Of a stretch of 64,000 bases of DNA, positions 53,070-64,000 are shown one piece after another. The notes under the pieces are model-generated. The model had not been told where the DNA came from. It made no database searches and saw nothing but the letters and a program-made list of their open reading frames with translations. Made by a program: the position numbers and the translations under genes. This stretch comes from Spirochaetae bacterium HGW-Spirochaetae-1 (GTDB taxonomy: Bacteria > Spirochaetota > UBA4802 > UBA5550): positions 372,001 through 436,000 of the forward strand of contig PGXY01000007.1 in the NCBI GenBank assembly GCA_002839375.1. The letters run 5' to 3'. The stretch's first letter is position 1; each line of letters opens with the position of its first letter.

Positions 53070-55847
53070 TTATTTCCCTACATATTCATCATTCTTAAAG
53101 CGTCCCTTGGCTATCTCATCACCATAGGTGTTATACAGGGTACCCTGCCCGTTGGCCCTGTTATCGCGATATTCGCCCACATATTTCTGGCCATCGGGCC
53201 AGGTGTATGTACCGATTCCGTGCCTCTTCCCATCCTTAAAATCACCCACATATACAGAGCCCGTGGCCCAGGTCAGAGTACCCTTCCCCTCCGGCTTGCC
53301 GTTTTTAAAATCACCGTTGTATTTCTGACCGTTGGGCCAGGAAAAGGAACCGACACCATGAGGCCGACCATCAAGCACATACCCCTCATATTTCCTGTTA
53401 TCAAACCATGTTATGGCTCCTTTGCCGTTGGGGCTCCCCTTCTTAAACTCGCCCACATAACGCTCTCCATCGGGCCATACCTGTACACCCTTTCCCTCGA
53501 TCTCGTTATTTTTAAAATCACCGGAATACTTTTTACCGTCCCGCCAGGTCATAGTCCCGGTTCCATGCATGTTTCCCCGGTCGAAATCCCCTTCATATCG
53601 ACGTCCGTCCTTCCAGGTCATGATCCCTTTTCCGTTGGGTACCCTGTCCTTTAAATCTCCTGAGTATTCCGTACCATCGGGCCAGATAAGAATTCCCGGG
53701 CTGGCCGGCTCCCCATCGACAAAATTGCCCTTGTAGCTTTTACCATCGGACCAGGTGAGCATGCCCTGCCCGTGAGGAACACCGTTTTTGAACGAACCGG
53801 TATAGGATCGGCCGTCCTTCCATTTCATGGTGCCCGTACCGGAGGGTACACCATCCTCAAACACGCCAGTATAGGTCCTTCCATCGGTCCACACAATGGT
53901 CCCCTTTCCCGACGGTTTGCCCTCCTTGAATTCACCGACATACCGGGTGCCATCTTTCCATTTCATGACACCCTCACCATGAGGCTCGCCATTGAGGTAC
54001 TGGCCGGAATAAGTTCTGCCGTCACTCCAACGCATAACACCCTTTCTGTCCGGTTCACCGTTTAAAAAATTTCCCGTATAACTGCGGCCGTCTTTCCAGG
54101 TCATGGTCCCGTTTCCATGGGGAACGCCGTTTTTAAACAACCCGGTGAACCGGCGACCATCCTTCCAGGTCATAGTCCCTTTGCCCTCGGGCAGCCCTTC
54201 CTTGAAATTTCCCGTGTATGTCTTTCCATCCAGCCATGTCATTCTTCCTACACCCTGGGGCTCACCGTTAAAAAATGTGCCGGTATAGGTGCGTCCATCA
54301 CTATAAGTCAGCGTTCCCTTGCCTTCAGGTTTTCCGTTTTTAAATTGTCCGGTATAAACCGTTCCATCGGGTTTCTCCAGGGTTCCCGAACCATGGGGTT
54401 TGCCGTGCATGAACTCACCTGAATATTTCGATTTGTCGGCAAAAATTTTAACTCCCCTGCCATGAGGTTCTCCATTGAGAAAGTCCCCTTCATACCGTGA
54501 TCCATCGGCCGACTCAAGCACGCCTTTCCCGCCGGGCAAACCGTTTTTCACCGCACCGGTATATTTGGAGCCGTCCTTATAGACAAATGTTCCCGTTCCA
54601 TGGGGTTTCCCGTCCTTAAACTGCCCGATATAGCGGGTCCCGTCGGCATAGGTAATGGTGCCGGATCCGTCGGGCTTCCCTTTTTTAAATTCACCCGTAT
54701 AAGCGGTACCGTCTTTATATGTTATAGTCCCCGTTCCTTCGGGAACGCCATTTTTAAAATCGCCTTCATACACGGACCCGTCGGCATGGGTCAGCTTCCC
54801 TTTTCCATCGGGAATATTATCCTTAAAGGTTCCCACATACTGTGATCCATCGGGGCTTATCCGCTCTCCTTTTCCGGTAAGCTTCCCATTGACAAAAGTT
54901 CCGGAGAGCACCGTACCATCGGCAAGAGTGAAAGTTCCTACTCCGTGGGGAAGACCGTTGCGAAATTCGCCCTTATAGGAGTCGCCGTTTTTCCAGGTAA
55001 TTTCACCGGAGCCGTGGGGTTTACCTCTTTCAAGCTCCCCCGTATAGACACTGCCGTCTCTCATTTTTATCGTACCACTGGGCCGCCCGTTATGAAACGT
55101 CCCCTCGTAACTGGAACCGTCGGAATATACCTGTTTGCCCGTTCCATGGGGTTTCCCGTCCTTAAACTGCCCGGTATAGCGGGTCCCGTCGGGTGCTGTC
55201 ATGGTGCCGCTTCCCTGCAACTCCCCGTTTATGAATGTCCCGACCAGAACAGTCCCGTCAGGCATGGTCTTTGTGCCGCTGCCATAGGGAACACCGTTTT
55301 TGAATTCGCCTGTATATTTTGATCCGTCAGGATAGGTGAGCACCCCTCTGCCGTGGGGAACACCATTGATGAAATCCCCCTCGTAAACAGAGCCGTCTTT
55401 TTTTGTCAGGACGCCCTTGCCATAAGGAAGGCCGTCTGCAAATTCACCGGTATAGATGGAACCATCGGGATTATATTGAGTTCCCATGCCATGTGGCCTT
55501 CCATCCCTGAATTCACCTACATATTTTGTGCCGTCGGGCAGTATTCTCGTCCCATGACCATGGGGTTTTCCGTCCTCGAAATCACCCTCATAAACAGTAC
55601 CCACGGGAAGCGTGAGTTTCCCCTTGCCATGAGGTTTCCCATCTTTAAAATTGCCCACATAAACCGACCCGTCGGGCATAATCATTTTACCATATCCATC
55701 GGGTACATCGCCGCGGAGCTGACCCGCGTACTTTGATCCATCGGGGAGAACCTTCATCTTCTCACCGTCCTGGGTCGTTTTACATGACAAGGACAGCAGA
55801 AAAAGTAAACAGACCAGAATAATGATAACCGGTGAATTTTTTTTCAT
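53070..55847 (-). CDS. MORN-repeat lipoprotein
   Basis: A 925-residue lipoprotein with 38 tandem MORN repeats plus one partial. Lipobox LSLSC follows MKKNSPVIIILVCLLFL. Each repeat is 23 residues with the pattern D-G-x-x-Y-x-G-x-F-x-x-G-x-P-x-G-x-G; repeat 10 is 21 residues. MORN repeats form beta-hairpin solenoids that bind membranes or proteins, so this is probably a long rigid rod attached to a membrane. The ATG at 55847 is chosen with AGAGG about 8 bases upstream; 55853 is possible. It stands alone. Confidence 0.88.
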   Translation of the reverse strand: MKKNSPVIIILVCLLFLLSLSCKTTQDGEKMKVLPDGSKYAGQLRGDVPDGYGKMIMPDGSVYVGNFKDGKPHGKGKLTLPVGTVYEGDFEDGKPHGHGTRILPDGTKYVGEFRDGRPHGMGTQYNPDGSIYTGEFADGLPYGKGVLTKKDGSVYEGDFINGVPHGRGVLTYPDGSKYTGEFKNGVPYGSGTKTMPDGTVLVGTFINGELQGSGTMTAPDGTRYTGQFKDGKPHGTGKQVYSDGSSYEGTFHNGRPSGTIKMRDGSVYTGELERGKPHGSGEITWKNGDSYKGEFRNGLPHGVGTFTLADGTVLSGTFVNGKLTGKGERISPDGSQYVGTFKDNIPDGKGKLTHADGSVYEGDFKNGVPEGTGTITYKDGTAYTGEFKKGKPDGSGTITYADGTRYIGQFKDGKPHGTGTFVYKDGSKYTGAVKNGLPGGKGVLESADGSRYEGDFLNGEPHGRGVKIFADKSKYSGEFMHGKPHGSGTLEKPDGTVYTGQFKNGKPEGKGTLTYSDGRTYTGTFFNGEPQGVGRMTWLDGKTYTGNFKEGLPEGKGTMTWKDGRRFTGLFKNGVPHGNGTMTWKDGRSYTGNFLNGEPDRKGVMRWSDGRTYSGQYLNGEPHGEGVMKWKDGTRYVGEFKEGKPSGKGTIVWTDGRTYTGVFEDGVPSGTGTMKWKDGRSYTGSFKNGVPHGQGMLTWSDGKSYKGNFVDGEPASPGILIWPDGTEYSGDLKDRVPNGKGIMTWKDGRRYEGDFDRGNMHGTGTMTWRDGKKYSGDFKNNEIEGKGVQVWPDGERYVGEFKKGSPNGKGAITWFDNRKYEGYVLDGRPHGVGSFSWPNGQKYNGDFKNGKPEGKGTLTWATGSVYVGDFKDGKRHGIGTYTWPDGQKYVGEYRDNRANGQGTLYNTYGDEIAKGRFKNDEYVGK

Positions 55848-56058
55848 TAACATCGACCTCTGTAATTTATGGTTTTTATTGATAATTATCGAAGACACGT
55901 ATTTGCAGATTCCTTCTTGACCTTACCTCTATTAAAATATTTGTCAAGATATATGCTCCAAATTCTCTAATTATTTTTTAATTGACTGGGGTAACAACTT
56001 CATTTACTCTCAGATTATATGCGGCCTGGTATGCAACCGGACTACGCCGGAAGCATTT

Positions 56059-56074: not shown

Positions 56075-56143
56075 TAAATATCACCACCGGTTCGCAGCTG
56101 ATCCATAACTTTGACATATCCCCAATTACACCGGAGTAAAATC

Positions 56144-58477
56144 ATGATGAATGCCGAGCAGAAAAACGGGCAGAAAATAACAAAACCAAAAAAAAAGATG
56201 AAACTCAAAGTAAAAATCACAGGATTGAAAAACAGTTTCATCGCCTATTTTTTTGAAGACAGTATTGGAAGCAGGGCATATAATAAATACCTCTCCAGGC
56301 TGATAACCGTCGTAAAGGTTTTCTTCATATCTACTCGCAAATTCCTGGCCGATGAATGTCTCACCAAGGCTTCATCAATAACCTATACTATTATTGTTTC
56401 ATTGGTGCCCACGCTCACGGTGGTACTCACCTTCTATTCGATTTTCTCAGGGGTGGGCGATAAAAAGGAAGATCTTTTTAAAAATATTTCCCTCTTTATG
56501 CTTGAGCACAATATAAAACTTAACATTGACTTCCTTTTCGCAGCCATCTCGGACCTGATCGAGAACGCGGAAGCAATCGGAGGCATCAGCGCCGCCATCA
56601 TGATTTTTTCTGCAACAGCCATGCTCAGATCTCTGGAGAAAAGCCTTAACGACATCTGGAAAATAAAAAAGCAGCGTCCCCTGGTTCTGAAAGTAGTATA
56701 TTACTGGGCGGCCCTGACCCTGGGACCGGTAATGCTCATTGCCGGCACGACCGTTGCCGCCCAGGTTTCCGAACTCTTCTCGGCACCCCACTGCCGTTCA
56801 GCCTCTTTCGACGACGCCGGCAACATCTGGACGACGGGAACAAAGGCAAGAATACAGTACTCGCCGACACAAAAACTACAGCTGACTACAATCACCGATG
56901 ACAAAATAGATTTTGACAACCAGAAGGCCTATCAATTCATCGCCGGTGAGAAAGTATTCAAACAGCAGGAACTGGGAATAGACATACTGGAATACAAAAA
57001 AATCAGGTTCAACGATATCCAGTTCATTGACAACGAGGGATGGATAGTCGGCAGCCAGGGGATTGTCATGCACACGGCGAATGGGGGAAAGACCTGGAGC
57101 CTTCGAAAATGGGGCGTTTTTTCCATTAACGACATACACATGCTGGACATACGCCGCGGCTTCATGGCATCGGATAATGGAATAATACTTGAAACGGAAG
57201 ACGGCGGTAAAACATGGAAGGTCCTGGAGTGGGAAGGCGTTGTTAATAATTTTTCATCAATCAGCTTTTTCAACAACAGGGGAATAATAACGGGGAGCGG
57301 TGGTATCATTCTTTACACGGCCGATGCCGGTAAAAAATGGCAGCTCATGAATATCAAGGAGGCCCGCCGCAAGGACAGGCCCATTAATTTAAACAGCGCG
57401 TTTTTCGTCAATGAAAACGTCATATGGCTCATGGGGAACGAGGGGGTGATGCTGAAAAGCACCGATGGCGGTAAAAGCTGGAAAAACCTGAAGTTCAAGG
57501 AAATAAATTACCATTACTGCTACTTCTTCAATGAAAAAGAGGGGATGGTCGTGGGGACCAAGGGAACCGTGACAACCACCGTCGACGGCGGTGAAAACTG
57601 GGTAGTTAACGAACTGCCCACATACCAGATTAACAAACTGATCCACCGGCAGGGCCTGTTCTGCGCCGTAGGTGACAACGGCATGATAATGCTGTCAAAG
57701 GACCGGGGAAAAACCTGGAACGGCACGGAAGGAAAAAGCATCATTGCGTTCCTCATTAATTTCCTGGCCCCCTTTATCATCATCTGGCTCTTGTTCTTCC
57801 TGTGCTACCTCACCCTTCCCAACACAAAAATACCGGTTAAGGACGCAATGCTCGGGTCAGCCTTCACCGGAGCAGTCTGGGTAATATTCATCCTGTCCTT
57901 CATCGTATATGTCAAGGCATTCGCCCGGGGAACCTTTGCCGTATACGGCGCCCTGGCGTCGATCCCTCTTTTCCTTCTCATGATCTATGCCTCGGCAGTC
58001 ATCATCCTCTACGGTGCCGAGGTGTCATACACGCTCATGCATCCCGAAACATACCGGGATCTGAAACGGGCCTTAAAGGGAAAAGTCGAGACACATGTCT
58101 ATTACGGCATCGCCATTCTGCACCATATATATGAAAAATTCGAAAGCGGCAAGGGGGCGGCGAGTTTCAACGAAATACTGAAGGTATGCTCCAACAACAC
58201 GGAAGAGGTGGATTTATTCCTCGCCATGTTTGTCAGGGACGGCATCATTGTTCAGAAAGACGAAACGGAATATATTCCGGCTAACGCCTCGGAGAATATC
58301 CTGCTTGCCAATATCATCGACAATATACACGACATCAGCCTGCATATCCCTGGAGCAAATAGAAAATCGCCACTCAGGGATTACCTGGAAACCATGTTTA
58401 AAAATATGAAAGATAGCAGAAGCAAGGTTCTTGGAACCACGACACTGAAAGACGTCATTTCGCACAGCAAGGGTTAG
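56144..58477 (+). CDS. YihY-family membrane protein with inserted Ycf48-like propeller
   Basis: A 777-residue inner-membrane protein. YihY/BrkB-family parts are seen on both sides of an insert: N-terminal TKASSITYTIIVSLVPTL and SLEKSLNDIWKIKK, and later CYLTLPNTKIPVKDAMLG, then FAVYGALASIPLFLLMIYAS and ILYGAEVSY. Between residues of about 214 and 528 is an insert with six Asp-box motifs of the type DGGKTW (TANGGKTW, TEDGGKTW, TADAGKKW, TDGGKSW, VDGGENW, DRGKTW), as in BNR/Ycf48 propellers. A winged-helix-like C terminus follows. GGAG precedes ATG 56144. Family function is poorly known; old 'ribonuclease BN' naming for YihY is not supported. Confidence 0.88.
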   Translation: MMNAEQKNGQKITKPKKKMKLKVKITGLKNSFIAYFFEDSIGSRAYNKYLSRLITVVKVFFISTRKFLADECLTKASSITYTIIVSLVPTLTVVLTFYSIFSGVGDKKEDLFKNISLFMLEHNIKLNIDFLFAAISDLIENAEAIGGISAAIMIFSATAMLRSLEKSLNDIWKIKKQRPLVLKVVYYWAALTLGPVMLIAGTTVAAQVSELFSAPHCRSASFDDAGNIWTTGTKARIQYSPTQKLQLTTITDDKIDFDNQKAYQFIAGEKVFKQQELGIDILEYKKIRFNDIQFIDNEGWIVGSQGIVMHTANGGKTWSLRKWGVFSINDIHMLDIRRGFMASDNGIILETEDGGKTWKVLEWEGVVNNFSSISFFNNRGIITGSGGIILYTADAGKKWQLMNIKEARRKDRPINLNSAFFVNENVIWLMGNEGVMLKSTDGGKSWKNLKFKEINYHYCYFFNEKEGMVVGTKGTVTTTVDGGENWVVNELPTYQINKLIHRQGLFCAVGDNGMIMLSKDRGKTWNGTEGKSIIAFLINFLAPFIIIWLLFFLCYLTLPNTKIPVKDAMLGSAFTGAVWVIFILSFIVYVKAFARGTFAVYGALASIPLFLLMIYASAVIILYGAEVSYTLMHPETYRDLKRALKGKVETHVYYGIAILHHIYEKFESGKGAASFNEILKVCSNNTEEVDLFLAMFVRDGIIVQKDETEYIPANASENILLANIIDNIHDISLHIPGANRKSPLRDYLETMFKNMKDSRSKVLGTTTLKDVISHSKG

Positions 58478-58518: not shown

Positions 58519-59318
58519 CACTTGAATATGTTTTTCTCATCGGGGAAGAGACGTTCCTTTACTTCCCTGCTGTAGTCATTGACGGCATTGGTTATAGTGA
58601 CGGAAAGATCGGCGTACTTTTTCAGGAATTTAGGATAGAATTCCTGTTCAATGCCGAGCATGTCGTTGACGACCAGGACCTGGCCGTCGCAGTAACGACC
58701 GGCACCGATACCGATTGTGGGGATGGAAATACTCTCCGATATCTCTTTTGCCAGTTCCTCGGGAACCATTTCCAGCACCAGGGAAAAAGCCCCTGCCTCT
58801 TCCAGTATTTTCGCATCTTCAAGGATCATCTTTCTCTTCTCCTCGTCACGTCCCTGGACCGAGTATCCCCCCAGCTTGTGTACCGACTGCGGCGTGAGCC
58901 CCAGGTGTCCCATTACGGGTATGGAGGCCCTCACCAGGGCCTCGACGACGCCACGGAAATCGCTACCCCCCTCAAGCTTGACCGCATTGGCGCCGGTCTT
59001 CTTCATGAGATTCCCGGCATTACGCAGAGAATCCTCTATGGAGACATGATAGCTCATGAAAGGAAGGTCCGATACGAGAAACTTGGATGGAGCGCCTCGC
59101 CTCACTATTTCGGTATGATAAATCATCTGCTCCATGGTCACGGGAATGGTACTGGTGTATCCGGCGACGACATTGCCAAGGGAGTCACCGACAAGAATAA
59201 CGTCCAGGTCGGTTTTTTCCATGATCCGGGCGAAAGCGTAATCGTAACAGGTCAGCATGGATATGGGTGTGCCTTCTTTTTTGAATTTTTTAAAATCATT
59301 TATGTTTTTCAGTGCCAT
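58518..59318 (-). CDS. panB: 3-methyl-2-oxobutanoate hydroxymethyltransferase
   Basis: A 266-residue PanB, first enzyme of pantothenate synthesis; it transfers a hydroxymethyl group from 5,10-methylene-tetrahydrofolate to alpha-ketoisovalerate. Characteristic segments are MLTCYDYAFARIMEKTDLD, LVGDSLGNVVAGY, and GHLGLTPQSVHKLGGY, with IGIGAGRYCDGQVLV late. GAGG precedes the ATG. It overlaps folK by 23 bases, and the operon links folate synthesis with its use. Confidence 0.96.
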   Translation of the reverse strand: MALKNINDFKKFKKEGTPISMLTCYDYAFARIMEKTDLDVILVGDSLGNVVAGYTSTIPVTMEQMIYHTEIVRRGAPSKFLVSDLPFMSYHVSIEDSLRNAGNLMKKTGANAVKLEGGSDFRGVVEALVRASIPVMGHLGLTPQSVHKLGGYSVQGRDEEKRKMILEDAKILEEAGAFSLVLEMVPEELAKEISESISIPTIGIGAGRYCDGQVLVVNDMLGIEQEFYPKFLKKYADLSVTITNAVNDYSREVKERLFPDEKNIFK

Positions 59319-59763
59319 ACCGTACCTCGCTGATTTTTTTCTGTGTCACCGGATCGACAAGCCCGGGATCGAGTTCCAGAAGCTGGTCCATCACAAATAC
59401 TCTCCTTAACATCTCCCCGTGAGGGATGGTAAGGCTCCCCGTCTTCATTACCAGGGACCCGTAAAGAATAATATCAAGATCGATGATTCGGGGCCCTTTG
59501 GGAACGGATTCTTTTCTGCCCATATCCTGCTCAATATTTTTCAATAAGGCAAGCAATTTTTCCGGCTCATAGGCGGTCTCCACCATGACCATCTGGTTAA
59601 GAAAAAAGGGCTGATCAGTATAGTCCACGGGTTCCGTTTCCAGGACCCCGCTCACTACCTTGATCCGCATTCCCCGGTCTTCCCTGATTTTCGAAAGGGC
59701 CGTGGAGAGATTCCGTTCTCGGTCTCCCAGGTTGGTCCCCAGGCCGATATATACGTCCGTCAT
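59296..59763 (-). CDS. folK: 2-amino-4-hydroxy-6-hydroxymethyldihydropteridine pyrophosphokinase
   Basis: A 155-residue HPPK, the folate pathway enzyme that pyrophosphorylates hydroxymethyldihydropterin. YIGLGTNLGDRERNL at the N terminus and the PRIIDLDIILYG and LTIPHGEMLRRVFVM motifs define the family. The ATG follows the upstream dnaC-like stop directly (TAA-ATG), so the genes are in one operon. Confidence 0.95.
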   Translation of the reverse strand: MTDVYIGLGTNLGDRERNLSTALSKIREDRGMRIKVVSGVLETEPVDYTDQPFFLNQMVMVETAYEPEKLLALLKNIEQDMGRKESVPKGPRIIDLDIILYGSLVMKTGSLTIPHGEMLRRVFVMDQLLELDPGLVDPVTQKKISEVRYGTEKHK

Positions 59764-60594
59764 TTACAGGCTGTTCCTGAAATCCTCGCCGCTCAGTTCA
59801 AGGATATGACACATTTCTTTTATGCGGGAAAGAATCCTTCCCTCGGAGAGCTCCTTGAATGCCTTGAGGGGATTGAGATTGGACGTAAACACGGTGAATT
59901 TTTCCGCTTCGTAGCGGGCATCCACCAGGTTGTACAGAGTTTCCTGCTCCCAGGGCGAATCGCGCTGAACGCCGAAATCATCGATGACCAGGATATCGAC
60001 CTCCTGGACTTCCTTCTCGATCTGGCTCGACTGGCCGTAGGTTTCCGACGCCTCATGAAAGGTGGCTTTAAGCCGGTTGAAAAAATTGCGCGATATTTTC
60101 ACAAAACGTCCCTCCACGGCGTGCCTGGCAATGATTTCGGTCAGCATAATGGAGGAAAGCAGGGTTTTTCCCGTACCGGGATTCCCCCAGAGAAATAGTC
60201 CCTTGCGCACATCGGGAAAGTTCCTGACGATCTCATAGGCGGCATTTTTAGCTTCATTCCCCAGCCTGTTCCGGGAGGCATCAAAATCACCGAGAAACTT
60301 CCACTGGAATTTCCTGTCTATGCCGGACCGATTGTATATTTTTTTGATCTTTTCTATGCGCATCCTGGCCTCGCGGCAGGAACAGTCCTGTATCTTTCCA
60401 TTATCAATATAATAATAGGGCTCCTGCCCGCCGCAGCGGCATCCCGGTATGACACAACGGGGACAGGGCAGCAGGGGCTCCTCGCCCAGTTCCAGGTAAT
60501 GGGCATGATGAACAATGCCATTGAATTCACAATAGGAGCATTTTTTAATTTCACCTTTTCCGGTTGCCTGATCAGTATTCATAATTGTATCCAT
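59764..60594 (-). CDS. DnaC/DnaI-like ATP-binding protein with N-terminal Cys cluster
   Basis: A 276-residue AAA+ protein resembling DnaC/DnaI helicase loaders and the IstB group. N-terminal cysteines occur in CSYC, CPRC, CRCGG and CSC, suggesting zinc binding as in DnaI-like proteins. Walker A is GNPGTGKT and Walker B is LVIDDFG. It most likely assists replicative helicase loading. The start may be 60594 or the ATG at 60582, which has GGAT upstream. It is first gene of the folK-panB operon. No IS elements are near, so an IstB role is unlikely. Confidence 0.82.
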   Translation of the reverse strand: MDTIMNTDQATGKGEIKKCSYCEFNGIVHHAHYLELGEEPLLPCPRCVIPGCRCGGQEPYYYIDNGKIQDCSCREARMRIEKIKKIYNRSGIDRKFQWKFLGDFDASRNRLGNEAKNAAYEIVRNFPDVRKGLFLWGNPGTGKTLLSSIMLTEIIARHAVEGRFVKISRNFFNRLKATFHEASETYGQSSQIEKEVQEVDILVIDDFGVQRDSPWEQETLYNLVDARYEAEKFTVFTSNLNPLKAFKELSEGRILSRIKEMCHILELSGEDFRNSL

Positions 60595-60752
60595 ATCCGC
60601 AGGATTTGCAGTAATTTCATATGAATAAACCTGATAAAATTGATGTCAACAAAATAAAAAGGTATTATTATACTTATTAGACAGGGAGACTTGCTTCTCT
60701 CATGAAAACGCTAAAAATTCACCCCGTGAAACCGGGCAAAAGAGAAAATGAA

Positions 60753-60780
60753 TCAATTTTACAAGCCCCTCTGCCGATAA
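60753..60780 (+). promoter_or_regulatory. Sigma-28 (FliA)-like promoter
   Basis: GCCGATAA at 60773-60780 is an exact match to the FliA -10, with TCAATTTT (6 of 8 to TAAAGTTT) at 60753-60760 and a 12-base spacer. It lies 43 bases before the ATG of the FcpA-like gene. Confidence 0.7.
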
Positions 60781-60822
60781 AATATAGTGAACAATACCAC
60801 GTTTTAAATAAAGGGGATACTA

Positions 60823-61677
60823 ATGAAATCAAAAATTAAAAATACAACAGCACTCTTTATTGGCCTTTTTCTCATGCTTTGTACGGTGACGGCCCTGGTG
60901 GCGCAGCAGGCTCCGGCAGGAGACAAAACAGACCCGGCAAAGGAAGGGAAAATTCAGCCCGATGATACGGGATGGAGAATACGCGATTTTCAACCCTATG
61001 TCAAGGCCATCGAGGAGCTGGAAAAGCTCAATAAGGAATATTCGGAAAACCTTTTAAAACTTTCCATTGATGAATATTCAACGGGACTGGACATCCTGGA
61101 AGATATGGAAAATGACCTGGTTAAAATCGTCGAGCAAAATAAGGGCAAAAAGAACCTGAATGAACGATGGTACTGGCAGGAAATCGACAGAAAAAACCAG
61201 GAACAGCGCCAGATTGCCATGAAAAAATATGAAGCGAAAATGAAGTCCGTTACCTATTTCACCAAATCGATTAATTTCCTGGATCAGGTTCAGAATGTGG
61301 AAGTAAAGAAGGACCCGAAATTCATCAATTTCCAGGCGCGCCTTTTCCAGGCCTATGTATCCAGCCAGTACGACCTGGCGAACATGAAGCCCTGCATTCC
61401 CATCCTGGAAAGATACCTTGCTCTATCGGAAAAAAACAAAAAGGACATATGGGCCTATAAATACCTGGCCAGCTGTTATGGGTACATGGAGGCTGTTCTG
61501 GCCAAGTACAAGCACGCAACAGAAGACCAGATCATGGAATACCGCAACAAGAAAAACAAGAGTATGCTCCAGGCCGTTGAGTTGAAATACGGCGTTGATT
61601 CGCCTCATTACAAACATATGCAGGAAGTCGTGCAATCCAACGAGAAAAAAAGTGAGAGAATCAACGACTTTAACTGA
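60823..61677 (+). CDS. FcpA-like secreted helical protein, probably flagellar
   Basis: A 284-residue exported protein with AAGGGGAT before the ATG and a signal peptide to about residue 27. The mature chain is nearly all helical and Lys-rich, with TPR-like pairs, YVKAIEELEKLNKEYSENL and YLASCYGYMEAVLAKY. It resembles in size and character the spirochaete flagellar-coiling protein FcpA, a component of the periplasmic flagellar sheath; this is from memory and not a detailed alignment. The upstream sigma-28-like promoter supports a flagellar role. Alternative: generic TPR periplasmic protein. Confidence 0.6.
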   Translation: MKSKIKNTTALFIGLFLMLCTVTALVAQQAPAGDKTDPAKEGKIQPDDTGWRIRDFQPYVKAIEELEKLNKEYSENLLKLSIDEYSTGLDILEDMENDLVKIVEQNKGKKNLNERWYWQEIDRKNQEQRQIAMKKYEAKMKSVTYFTKSINFLDQVQNVEVKKDPKFINFQARLFQAYVSSQYDLANMKPCIPILERYLALSEKNKKDIWAYKYLASCYGYMEAVLAKYKHATEDQIMEYRNKKNKSMLQAVELKYGVDSPHYKHMQEVVQSNEKKSERINDFN

Positions 61678-61702: not shown

Positions 61703-61732
61703 AAAAAAGCGGCGCTCAAGGGCCGCTTTTTT
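61703..61732. terminator. Bidirectional terminator after FcpA-like gene
   Basis: AAAAAAGCGGC and GCCGCTTTTTT form an 11-bp perfect stem with an 8-base loop. It has T and A tracts on both sides and serves the convergent genes. Confidence 0.88.
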
Positions 61733-62876: not shown

Positions 62877-64000
62877 TCAAACTTTTTCAAGACGATGATA
62901 GAATTCCGATTTGTAGATTTTTATACCCAGCCTGTCCTGCTGGTCTACGATTTCCTTTAATATCTCCGGTGTTGTGAGCGGGTTGATTGTTATGGCCCGC
63001 AGTATGACGACATTTTGAGACAGATAGTAAGGTGAATCCAGCATTGTCCGCGAGACAAAACTCTCGTCTTCCTCGCGCAGTTCCTTGTGAAGCTCAATAT
63101 TGAGATCGTTGAGAATATTATTTATCTTTCTGACAAGTTCTATCTCATGTCCGGCTTCCCCGTCAGGTTTCCCATTTATCTTCAGCATGAGAGATTCAAG
63201 CCTCTCACGGATCTTTTTCGGCACGAACCGGTAATTGTAAATAAACAGCTCGGGCTGGTTCATGGGCTCAAAATTGCAGTGCCGCTCCACCAGCCCCCTC
63301 AACGCCGAGGTCAGTTCAAAGGCGTGCTCAAAAAGGACTTTGAAGCCGTCCTTCCCGAAAATCTTAATCGTCGTCCAGGGCTTCAAGGCAGAAAAGGGAC
63401 GGGAGCCCTCAATATTGAATCGTCCCAGGTCCACCGAATCGGGCCTGATGATATAGTTAGCAGTATGTTTCAGATTGTTCAGATCATCCTTCTTGCGAAA
63501 CACCACGATACCCATAGCTACCGGTGAATAGAGAAGTTTGTGGGCGTCAACGGCGACTGAGTCGGCTCTTTCAATACCGTGAAAGAGATATCGGAATTCA
63601 TCGACCATGAGAAGCGAACCGCCCCAGGCAGCATCAACATGAAAGTGGGTCTTATATTTCGTAGCTATCTTTCTTATTTCCTTGAGATTGTCAATGTTGC
63701 CCGTCTCCGTTGTCCCGGCAATTCCCACGATGCTGATTATTATAATTTTCTCCCTGCTATTCTCATTGTGTTTACGAATATCCTCACACACCTTTTCCAG
63801 GCTGTTGATGTCCATCTTGTTCCGTGAATCCACGGGAATTTTGATCACATTGTCGTCGCCGAGTCCAATGGTCCGTGCCACCTTATCAATGGAGTAATGT
63901 CCCCGCTTGGAAACAATAATCACGGCCTTGCTCACGCCATAATAGCGGTACGCTTCAGCTATGCCCGCCCTCCTGATACCGGGAAATCTCTCGTCGGCCG
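62877..64000 (-). CDS. PLP-dependent group II decarboxylase family protein (partial)
   Basis: The C-terminal portion of a pyridoxal-5-phosphate enzyme; its reading frame stays open to the window end, so the N terminus is missing. The frame reads ADERFPGIRRAGIAEAYRYY at the border, so the GTG at 63935 is not a real start. Family features: HFHVDAAWGG (cofactor-binding Asp), then SVAVDAHKLLYSPVAMGIVV with the Schiff-base Lys. Substrates of this family include aromatic amino acids, glutamate and aspartate; the substrate here is unknown. A secreted protein gene follows immediately. Confidence 0.88.
   Translation of the reverse strand, partial: ADERFPGIRRAGIAEAYRYYGVSKAVIIVSKRGHYSIDKVARTIGLGDDNVIKIPVDSRNKMDINSLEKVCEDIRKHNENSREKIIIISIVGIAGTTETGNIDNLKEIRKIATKYKTHFHVDAAWGGSLLMVDEFRYLFHGIERADSVAVDAHKLLYSPVAMGIVVFRKKDDLNNLKHTANYIIRPDSVDLGRFNIEGSRPFSALKPWTTIKIFGKDGFKVLFEHAFELTSALRGLVERHCNFEPMNQPELFIYNYRFVPKKIRERLESLMLKINGKPDGEAGHEIELVRKINNILNDLNIELHKELREEDESFVSRTMLDSPYYLSQNVVILRAITINPLTTPEILKEIVDQQDRLGIKIYKSEFYHRLEKV

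Follow-up and report, generated by a model that had tools for sequence, protein, structure and literature searches.

The window, as we call the whole 64,000-nt stretch of DNA analysed, contains an fcpA orthologue of 284 aa (60823..61677, + strand) with a signal-peptide-like N-terminus and an all-helical predicted fold. Upstream on the same strand lies a predicted sigma-28-type promoter, recognised from its letters and by matrix tests, with a -35 box TCAATTTT (60753..60760) and a -10 box GCCGATAA (60773..60780) separated by a 12-nt spacer. The whole element, TCAATTTT-N12-GCCGATAA, occupies 60753-60780 and leaves 42 nt to the start codon, an ATG at 60823; a Shine-Dalgarno-like AAGGGGA (60811..60817, +), read directly, is placed 5 nt before this ATG. 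Weak sigma-70-like sites with 9/12 matches are located at 60640-60674. The intrinsic terminator-like hairpin with a T-run found 3' of the gene (61703..61732, +; -17 kcal/mol, z -3.8) suggests that fcpA is probably expressed as a single-gene transcript. The opposite strand encodes a divergent DnaC/IstB-like ATPase (59764..60594, -; assigned by Pfam), which is kept upstream of fcpA across lineages, and an adjoining folK-like gene that is conserved with the ATPase (59296..59763, -; named from a reading of the ORF and not from a family scan). Core flagellar genes are absent from the 46 window ORFs, of 50 selected, that were scanned with Pfam, in agreement with the sequence-only reading made earlier for this locus. 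Other products encoded in the window include a membrane protein of the BrkB/YihY type, its domain interrupted by an inserted YCF48/BNR beta-propeller (56111-58474), and a 942-aa protein composed almost entirely of MORN repeats in 37 stretches (53070-55898).

The sequence-only reading had proposed a secreted, helical, Lys-rich protein resembling FcpA, and all of these traits were recovered. The N-terminal signal-peptide-like segment is visible by eye, Lys accounts for 13% of the protein, and the AlphaFold2 model (34 sequences; pLDDT 83, pTM 0.69) is all-helical, with low values at residues 28-45. While the Pfam scan of the protein returned no significant family, the NCBIfam FcpA model NF047448 matched it at 5.3e-62 (209.7 bits), omitting the N-terminal profile positions 1-57, and a phmmer search against PDB retrieved four FcpA sequences (best E 3.1e-54). 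The model of the FcpA-related putative periplasmic flagellar protein, NF047449, gave 2.6e-33 and 115 bits against a cut-off of 200. In the Foldseek search of the structural model all nine matches with E<=0.001 were FcpA of L. biflexa, at ~35-37% identity, and the next match had an E of 0.04. A lack of FcpA homology by profile methods, named beforehand as grounds for abandoning the earlier reading, is thus contradicted by strong homology. The score remains below the Leptospira-tuned NF047448 cut-off of 400, and we therefore describe the protein as an FcpA orthologue in the broad sense, which is how the proposed FcpA likeness stands; it is not filed under the NCBIfam equivalog.

FcpA matches were identified in 86 of the 392 genomes of the phylum, including 43 of the 46 genomes of the window's uncultured order, which bears the GTDB name UBA4802, each with one copy. 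The other 43 matching genomes comprise one doubtful fragment with stops (G318) and members of five further families, which we take for Leptospira relatives. The NF047448 cut-off is passed by 26 of the 86 matching genomes and by none of the 43 from the order. Relatives in a public genome collection (35 loci) all belong to uncultured Spirochaetes/Spirochaetota MAGs. The labels Leptospira-like, Leptonema-like and Turneriella-like are our own, and only the first is supported, by ~80% likeness to PDB FcpA as judged by eye. In a tree of 95 rows (43 from the order, 26 from the Leptospira group, 13 further FcpA and 13 FcpA-related paralogues) all FcpA rows group together, the paralogues, among which branches are long, separate at 100/100, and the FcpA of the order forms one clade (100/99).

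The neighbourhood agrees with the tree. Upstream of fcpA, 21/42 order loci (38 with >=900 nt of upstream sequence) and 16/26 Leptospira-group loci (23 with >=900 nt) carry the gene for the divergent DnaC-like ATPase, and folK is its outer neighbour in 21 and 14 loci, respectively; none of the 13 third-group loci has this arrangement. The arrangement, common to both lineages, supports vertical descent. A gene for a PLP-dependent decarboxylase (62877-63935 in the window) is found near fcpA in 21/42 order loci and 0/26 Leptospira-group loci. By sequence, fold, tree position and shared neighbourhood, the gene at 60823-61677 is an FcpA orthologue.

The letters of the promoter element are as the sequence-only reading gave them, with an exact -10 box, a 6/8 -35 box and a 12-base spacer before the ORF. 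The sigma-28 consensus for the -35 box is TAAAGTTT, to which TCAATTTT has six of eight matches, and GCCGATAA matches the -10 consensus at all eight positions. In E. coli sigma-28 promoters 11 bases separate the two 8-base boxes; the spacer observed here, 12, is one longer and departs from that spacing. Counting GCCGATAA alone as promoter evidence was uninformative and was dropped, the octamer having 8 occurrences in the 64,000-nt window versus 2.3 expected. Because of this over-representation the site is not judged by its rarity, and its support is comparative. The pattern TNRATTT-N14-CCGATA, drawn up only after the site had been seen, has one match with at most one mismatch in the window versus 1.18 expected; genome-wide it has seven exact matches, compared with none for a reversed control. 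Six of these seven have no recognisable flagellar gene downstream, and only the one in the window precedes such a gene.

For the comparative analysis, a Leptospira-group matrix was trained on 24 fcpA upstream regions picked for CCGATA (loci L020 and L022 were excluded for too little upstream sequence) and applied to 43 fcpA upstreams from the order, with 284 upstreams of other ORFs from the same loci as controls. With a spacer of 12, 28 of the 43 exceeded the control 95th percentile, the counts for spacers 9-15 being 10, 13, 5, 28, 19, 8 and 3; the upstream rows are kin, so that these counts are not independent events. Among the 15 upstreams below the percentile are some that are short or whose start codon is doubtful; the first in-frame ATG was taken as the start everywhere, a choice that is probably mistaken at some loci (L061, L075, L080). 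The window site scored 11.86, above all 284 controls. A matrix built from 39 sites of the order, leaving out the window, has the consensus TnAATTTT-N12-GCCGATAn and gave the window site 24.1. In a comparison with 2000 shuffled versions of its own upstream region, the site reached p=0.0005 with the order matrix and p=0.003 with the Leptospira-group matrix. The 12-nt spacing is the one conserved in the window's order and in Leptospira-like genomes. The element is also retained at order loci that lack the divergent DnaC-like neighbour (e.g. L058, L064-L066), and the order matrix detected it in 10 of 13 third-group fcpA upstreams.

Among other flagellar genes, the element was most evident at flaA. 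The first flaA gene gave p 0.004-0.007 with the order matrix in all five order genomes analysed, with spacer 12 scoring best in 5/5 and own-shuffle p of 0.001-0.011, and the second flaA gene reached p<0.05 in one of the five. At the same threshold, the element was seen in 3/19 flagellin upstreams of these five genomes, in 3/22 upstreams of methyl-accepting chemotaxis protein (MCP) genes in the genome that carries the window (the other 8 of the 30 loci stopped short of the start), and in 4/19 order fcpB upstreams, one of them strong; for Leptospira-group flagellins the order matrix gave 2/12. In this lineage the element thus clearly marks fcpA and the flaA operon, and other flagellar genes weakly or not at all. 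A general sigma-28 regulon with this motif in the window's genome was considered but was not seen at the chemoreceptor genes or in six of the seven pattern matches; the MCP (3/22) and order flagellin (3/19) counts likewise show no wide regulon. In a Leptospira-like genome the pattern was found upstream of fcpB and of an MCP gene. Two Leptospira-like loci have secreted or lipoprotein-like ORFs 13-16 nt past the pattern (L263, 1541-2098; L254, 1544-2146), which are possible unrecognised flagellar genes. Upstream of two flagellin genes of the window's genome (L077, L079), short A+T-rich repeats (TATAATC / TATAAAC-like) in steps of ~10-11 bases were noted by eye.

The rest of the genome supplies the flagellar genes that the window lacks. 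FliA, encoded at G000:C11:324420, was detected at 290.7 bits (cut-off 189.6), and it is above the cut-off in 43 of the 46 order genomes. Seven flagellin-domain matches were found, of which the one on contig C4 is partial and the one on C10 (~420 aa) resembles the hook protein FlgL. There are three FlaA-domain matches, two of them from flaA genes in tandem (C9:237097-238436), and FlaA is present in 45/46 order genomes; FliD is also encoded. The same 5.2-Mb genome has 53 chemoreceptor signalling-domain matches.

A positional search around a Leptospira-like flagellin gene did not turn up FcpB; the Leptospira-like FcpB was located via the promoter pattern (1.1e-96 to PDB FcpB; NF047844 match). With an E limit of 0.1, the family model NF047844 gave weak matches among the 392 genomes in 36/46 of the order, including the window's own at 5.3e-5 (G000:C7:245451-246185), and also matched 45 genomes in families f11, f22, f34, f38, f41 and f46, plus 7 others, a split that we counted by hand. 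Nineteen of 20 FcpB-like ORFs fetched from the order constitute one secreted family of ~225-265 aa; locus L296 was dropped, as the ORF taken there is another protein. A profile of these 19 proteins retrieved only FcpB from PDB (4/4 matches, best 2.8e-17), and hhalign aligned the set with Leptospira-like FcpB at 6.1e-19 and with a third-group FcpB-like set at 3.5e-32; the control alignment with FcpA had 18% probability and covered the signal peptide only. Homologues of the FcpA partner proteins FlaB, FlaA and FcpB are thus encoded in the window's genome, the FcpB homologue being divergent. A genome devoid of fliA and flagellar genes, which would have spoken against the sequence-only reading, is not what was found: fliA (290.7 bits), flagellins, FlaA, FliD and the FcpB homologue are all present. 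That reading is supported: the gene is an FcpA orthologue, its promoter is probably of the sigma-28 type, and the genome also encodes the partner sheath and core proteins. The results new beyond it are a promoter with a 12-nt spacer that is conserved in two lineages and common to flaA, a divergent FcpB, and a wide spread outside Leptospira.

The coiled shape of Leptospira flagella is set by FcpA and FcpB, and FcpA of Leptospira is a secreted helical protein coating the FlaB core of the periplasmic flagellum. The orthologue described here would likewise coat the FlaB core. The presence of FlaB flagellins, of two flaA genes in tandem and of an FcpB homologue points to an asymmetric sheath as in Leptospira biflexa, in which FlaA would occupy one side of the filament and FcpA, braced by FcpB, the other, so that the filament bends. 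In published work, FcpA is reported to be able to induce curvature by itself, with FcpB serving as a wedge and FlaA2 enabling the asymmetric placement of FcpA (PMC13144727). Transcription of fcpA most likely starts from the element at 60753-60780 via sigma-28 (FliA), with the 12-nt spacer typical of the lineage. As the element is common to fcpA and the flaA operon, we propose that production of the sheath subunits falls late in flagellar assembly. From the homology, fold, co-occurrence and motif conservation observed we infer sigma-28 use, sheath location and coiling, and we consider it very likely that an FcpA orthologue, FliA-dependent transcription from 60753-60780 and a Leptospira-like asymmetric sheath go together.

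The promoter assignment is open to another view, in which a true FcpA orthologue is transcribed by the housekeeping sigma-70 and 60753-60780 is either bound by a different regulator or a relic. The sigma-70-like sites at 60640-60674 and the lack of the element at the lineage's chemoreceptor genes and most of its flagellin genes would fit; we nevertheless regard this as unlikely, since the element is promoter-shaped with fixed spacing and orientation, persists where order loci lack the divergent DnaC-like gene, is common to flaA operons and, in the Leptospira-like genome, to fcpB and an MCP gene, and occurs in an order that has FliA. The sigma-28 assignment itself, as first proposed, is supported by the cross-lineage matrix test and the presence of FliA; its spacer is 12, where that of E. 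coli is 11.

Doubt may also fall on the role of the protein. An FcpA fold serving elsewhere in the envelope, for example as a periplasmic scaffold, with no part in flagellar coiling, would accord with an identity to FcpA of only ~35-37%, a score below the NCBIfam cut-off and the unmatched profile positions 1-57. Co-occurrence with FlaA, FlaB and FcpB homologues, the promoter element shared with flaA, and orthology by tree and synteny render such a role quite improbable. That both the promoter match and the likeness of the protein to FcpA arose by chance, as the frequency of the octamer in the window (8 versus 2.3) might suggest, is already refuted for practical purposes by E values of ~1e-54 to 1e-62, the FcpA fold and the cross-lineage motif test, and we give it a negligible probability. 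Our best reading would be an ancestral, sigma-28-controlled FcpA sheath.

Orthologues across the uncultured order (43/46) and in the Leptospira-related families indicate that the sheath is an old trait. We think it reasonably probable that the asymmetric FcpA/FcpB/FlaA sheath, together with the 12-nt-spaced sigma-28 promoter, was already in place in the common ancestor that the Leptospira class shares with a distinct uncultured spirochaete lineage of class rank. If so, tightly coiled, one-sidedly sheathed periplasmic flagella are to be expected in spirochaetes known from metagenomes alone, and the sheath machinery would be older and more widespread than Leptospira papers state. FcpA and FcpB are listed as unique to the genus Leptospira in Table 1 of a structure paper (PMC7065911), and FcpA outside Leptospira has no mention in the available portions of PMC5953323, PMC7225975, PMC7912936 and PMC7431986; a listing-level search of the literature outside subscription papers, combining FcpA/FcpB with Turneriella, Leptonema and Spirochaetota, yielded no report of such a distribution. 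The accessible parts of PMC5243855 and the review PMC12655853 give predicted sigma-28 sites at FlaA1, FlaB1, FlaB4 and FliS, and fcpA has no mention among them there. The element thereby offers a testable promoter model for Leptospira, whose promoters are called poorly characterised in PMC5243855. The natural variants, at ~35% identity, could in addition serve to separate the core-binding from the FcpB-binding surfaces of FcpA.

In comparison with leptospiral FcpA (PDB 6nqw, 9ls0, 10lk; NF047448), the window protein shares homology over residues 37-274, the helical fold and secretion, and the genes share divergent DnaC-like/folK neighbours in many genomes and the CCGATA/N12 promoter element; the window protein differs in being ~35-37% identical, shorter, with another N-terminus and below the NCBIfam cut-off. 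FcpA is single in each matching order genome, whereas most Leptospira-like genomes add an FcpA-related paralogue. To this FcpA-related protein (NF047449) homology is detectable, but the window protein scores lower with it than with FcpA and is set apart from it by a long, fully supported branch. With FcpB (PDB 6nqz, 10lk; NF047844) the order genomes have a secreted homologue in common, although their homologues are very divergent, shorter and mostly without the promoter element. Known sigma-28 (FliA) promoters differ from the site described here in their spacer (11 versus 12), and in the window's genome the motif shows no evident association with chemoreceptor genes, whereas the exact GCCGATAA at -10, six of eight matches at -35 and an encoded FliA are shared.
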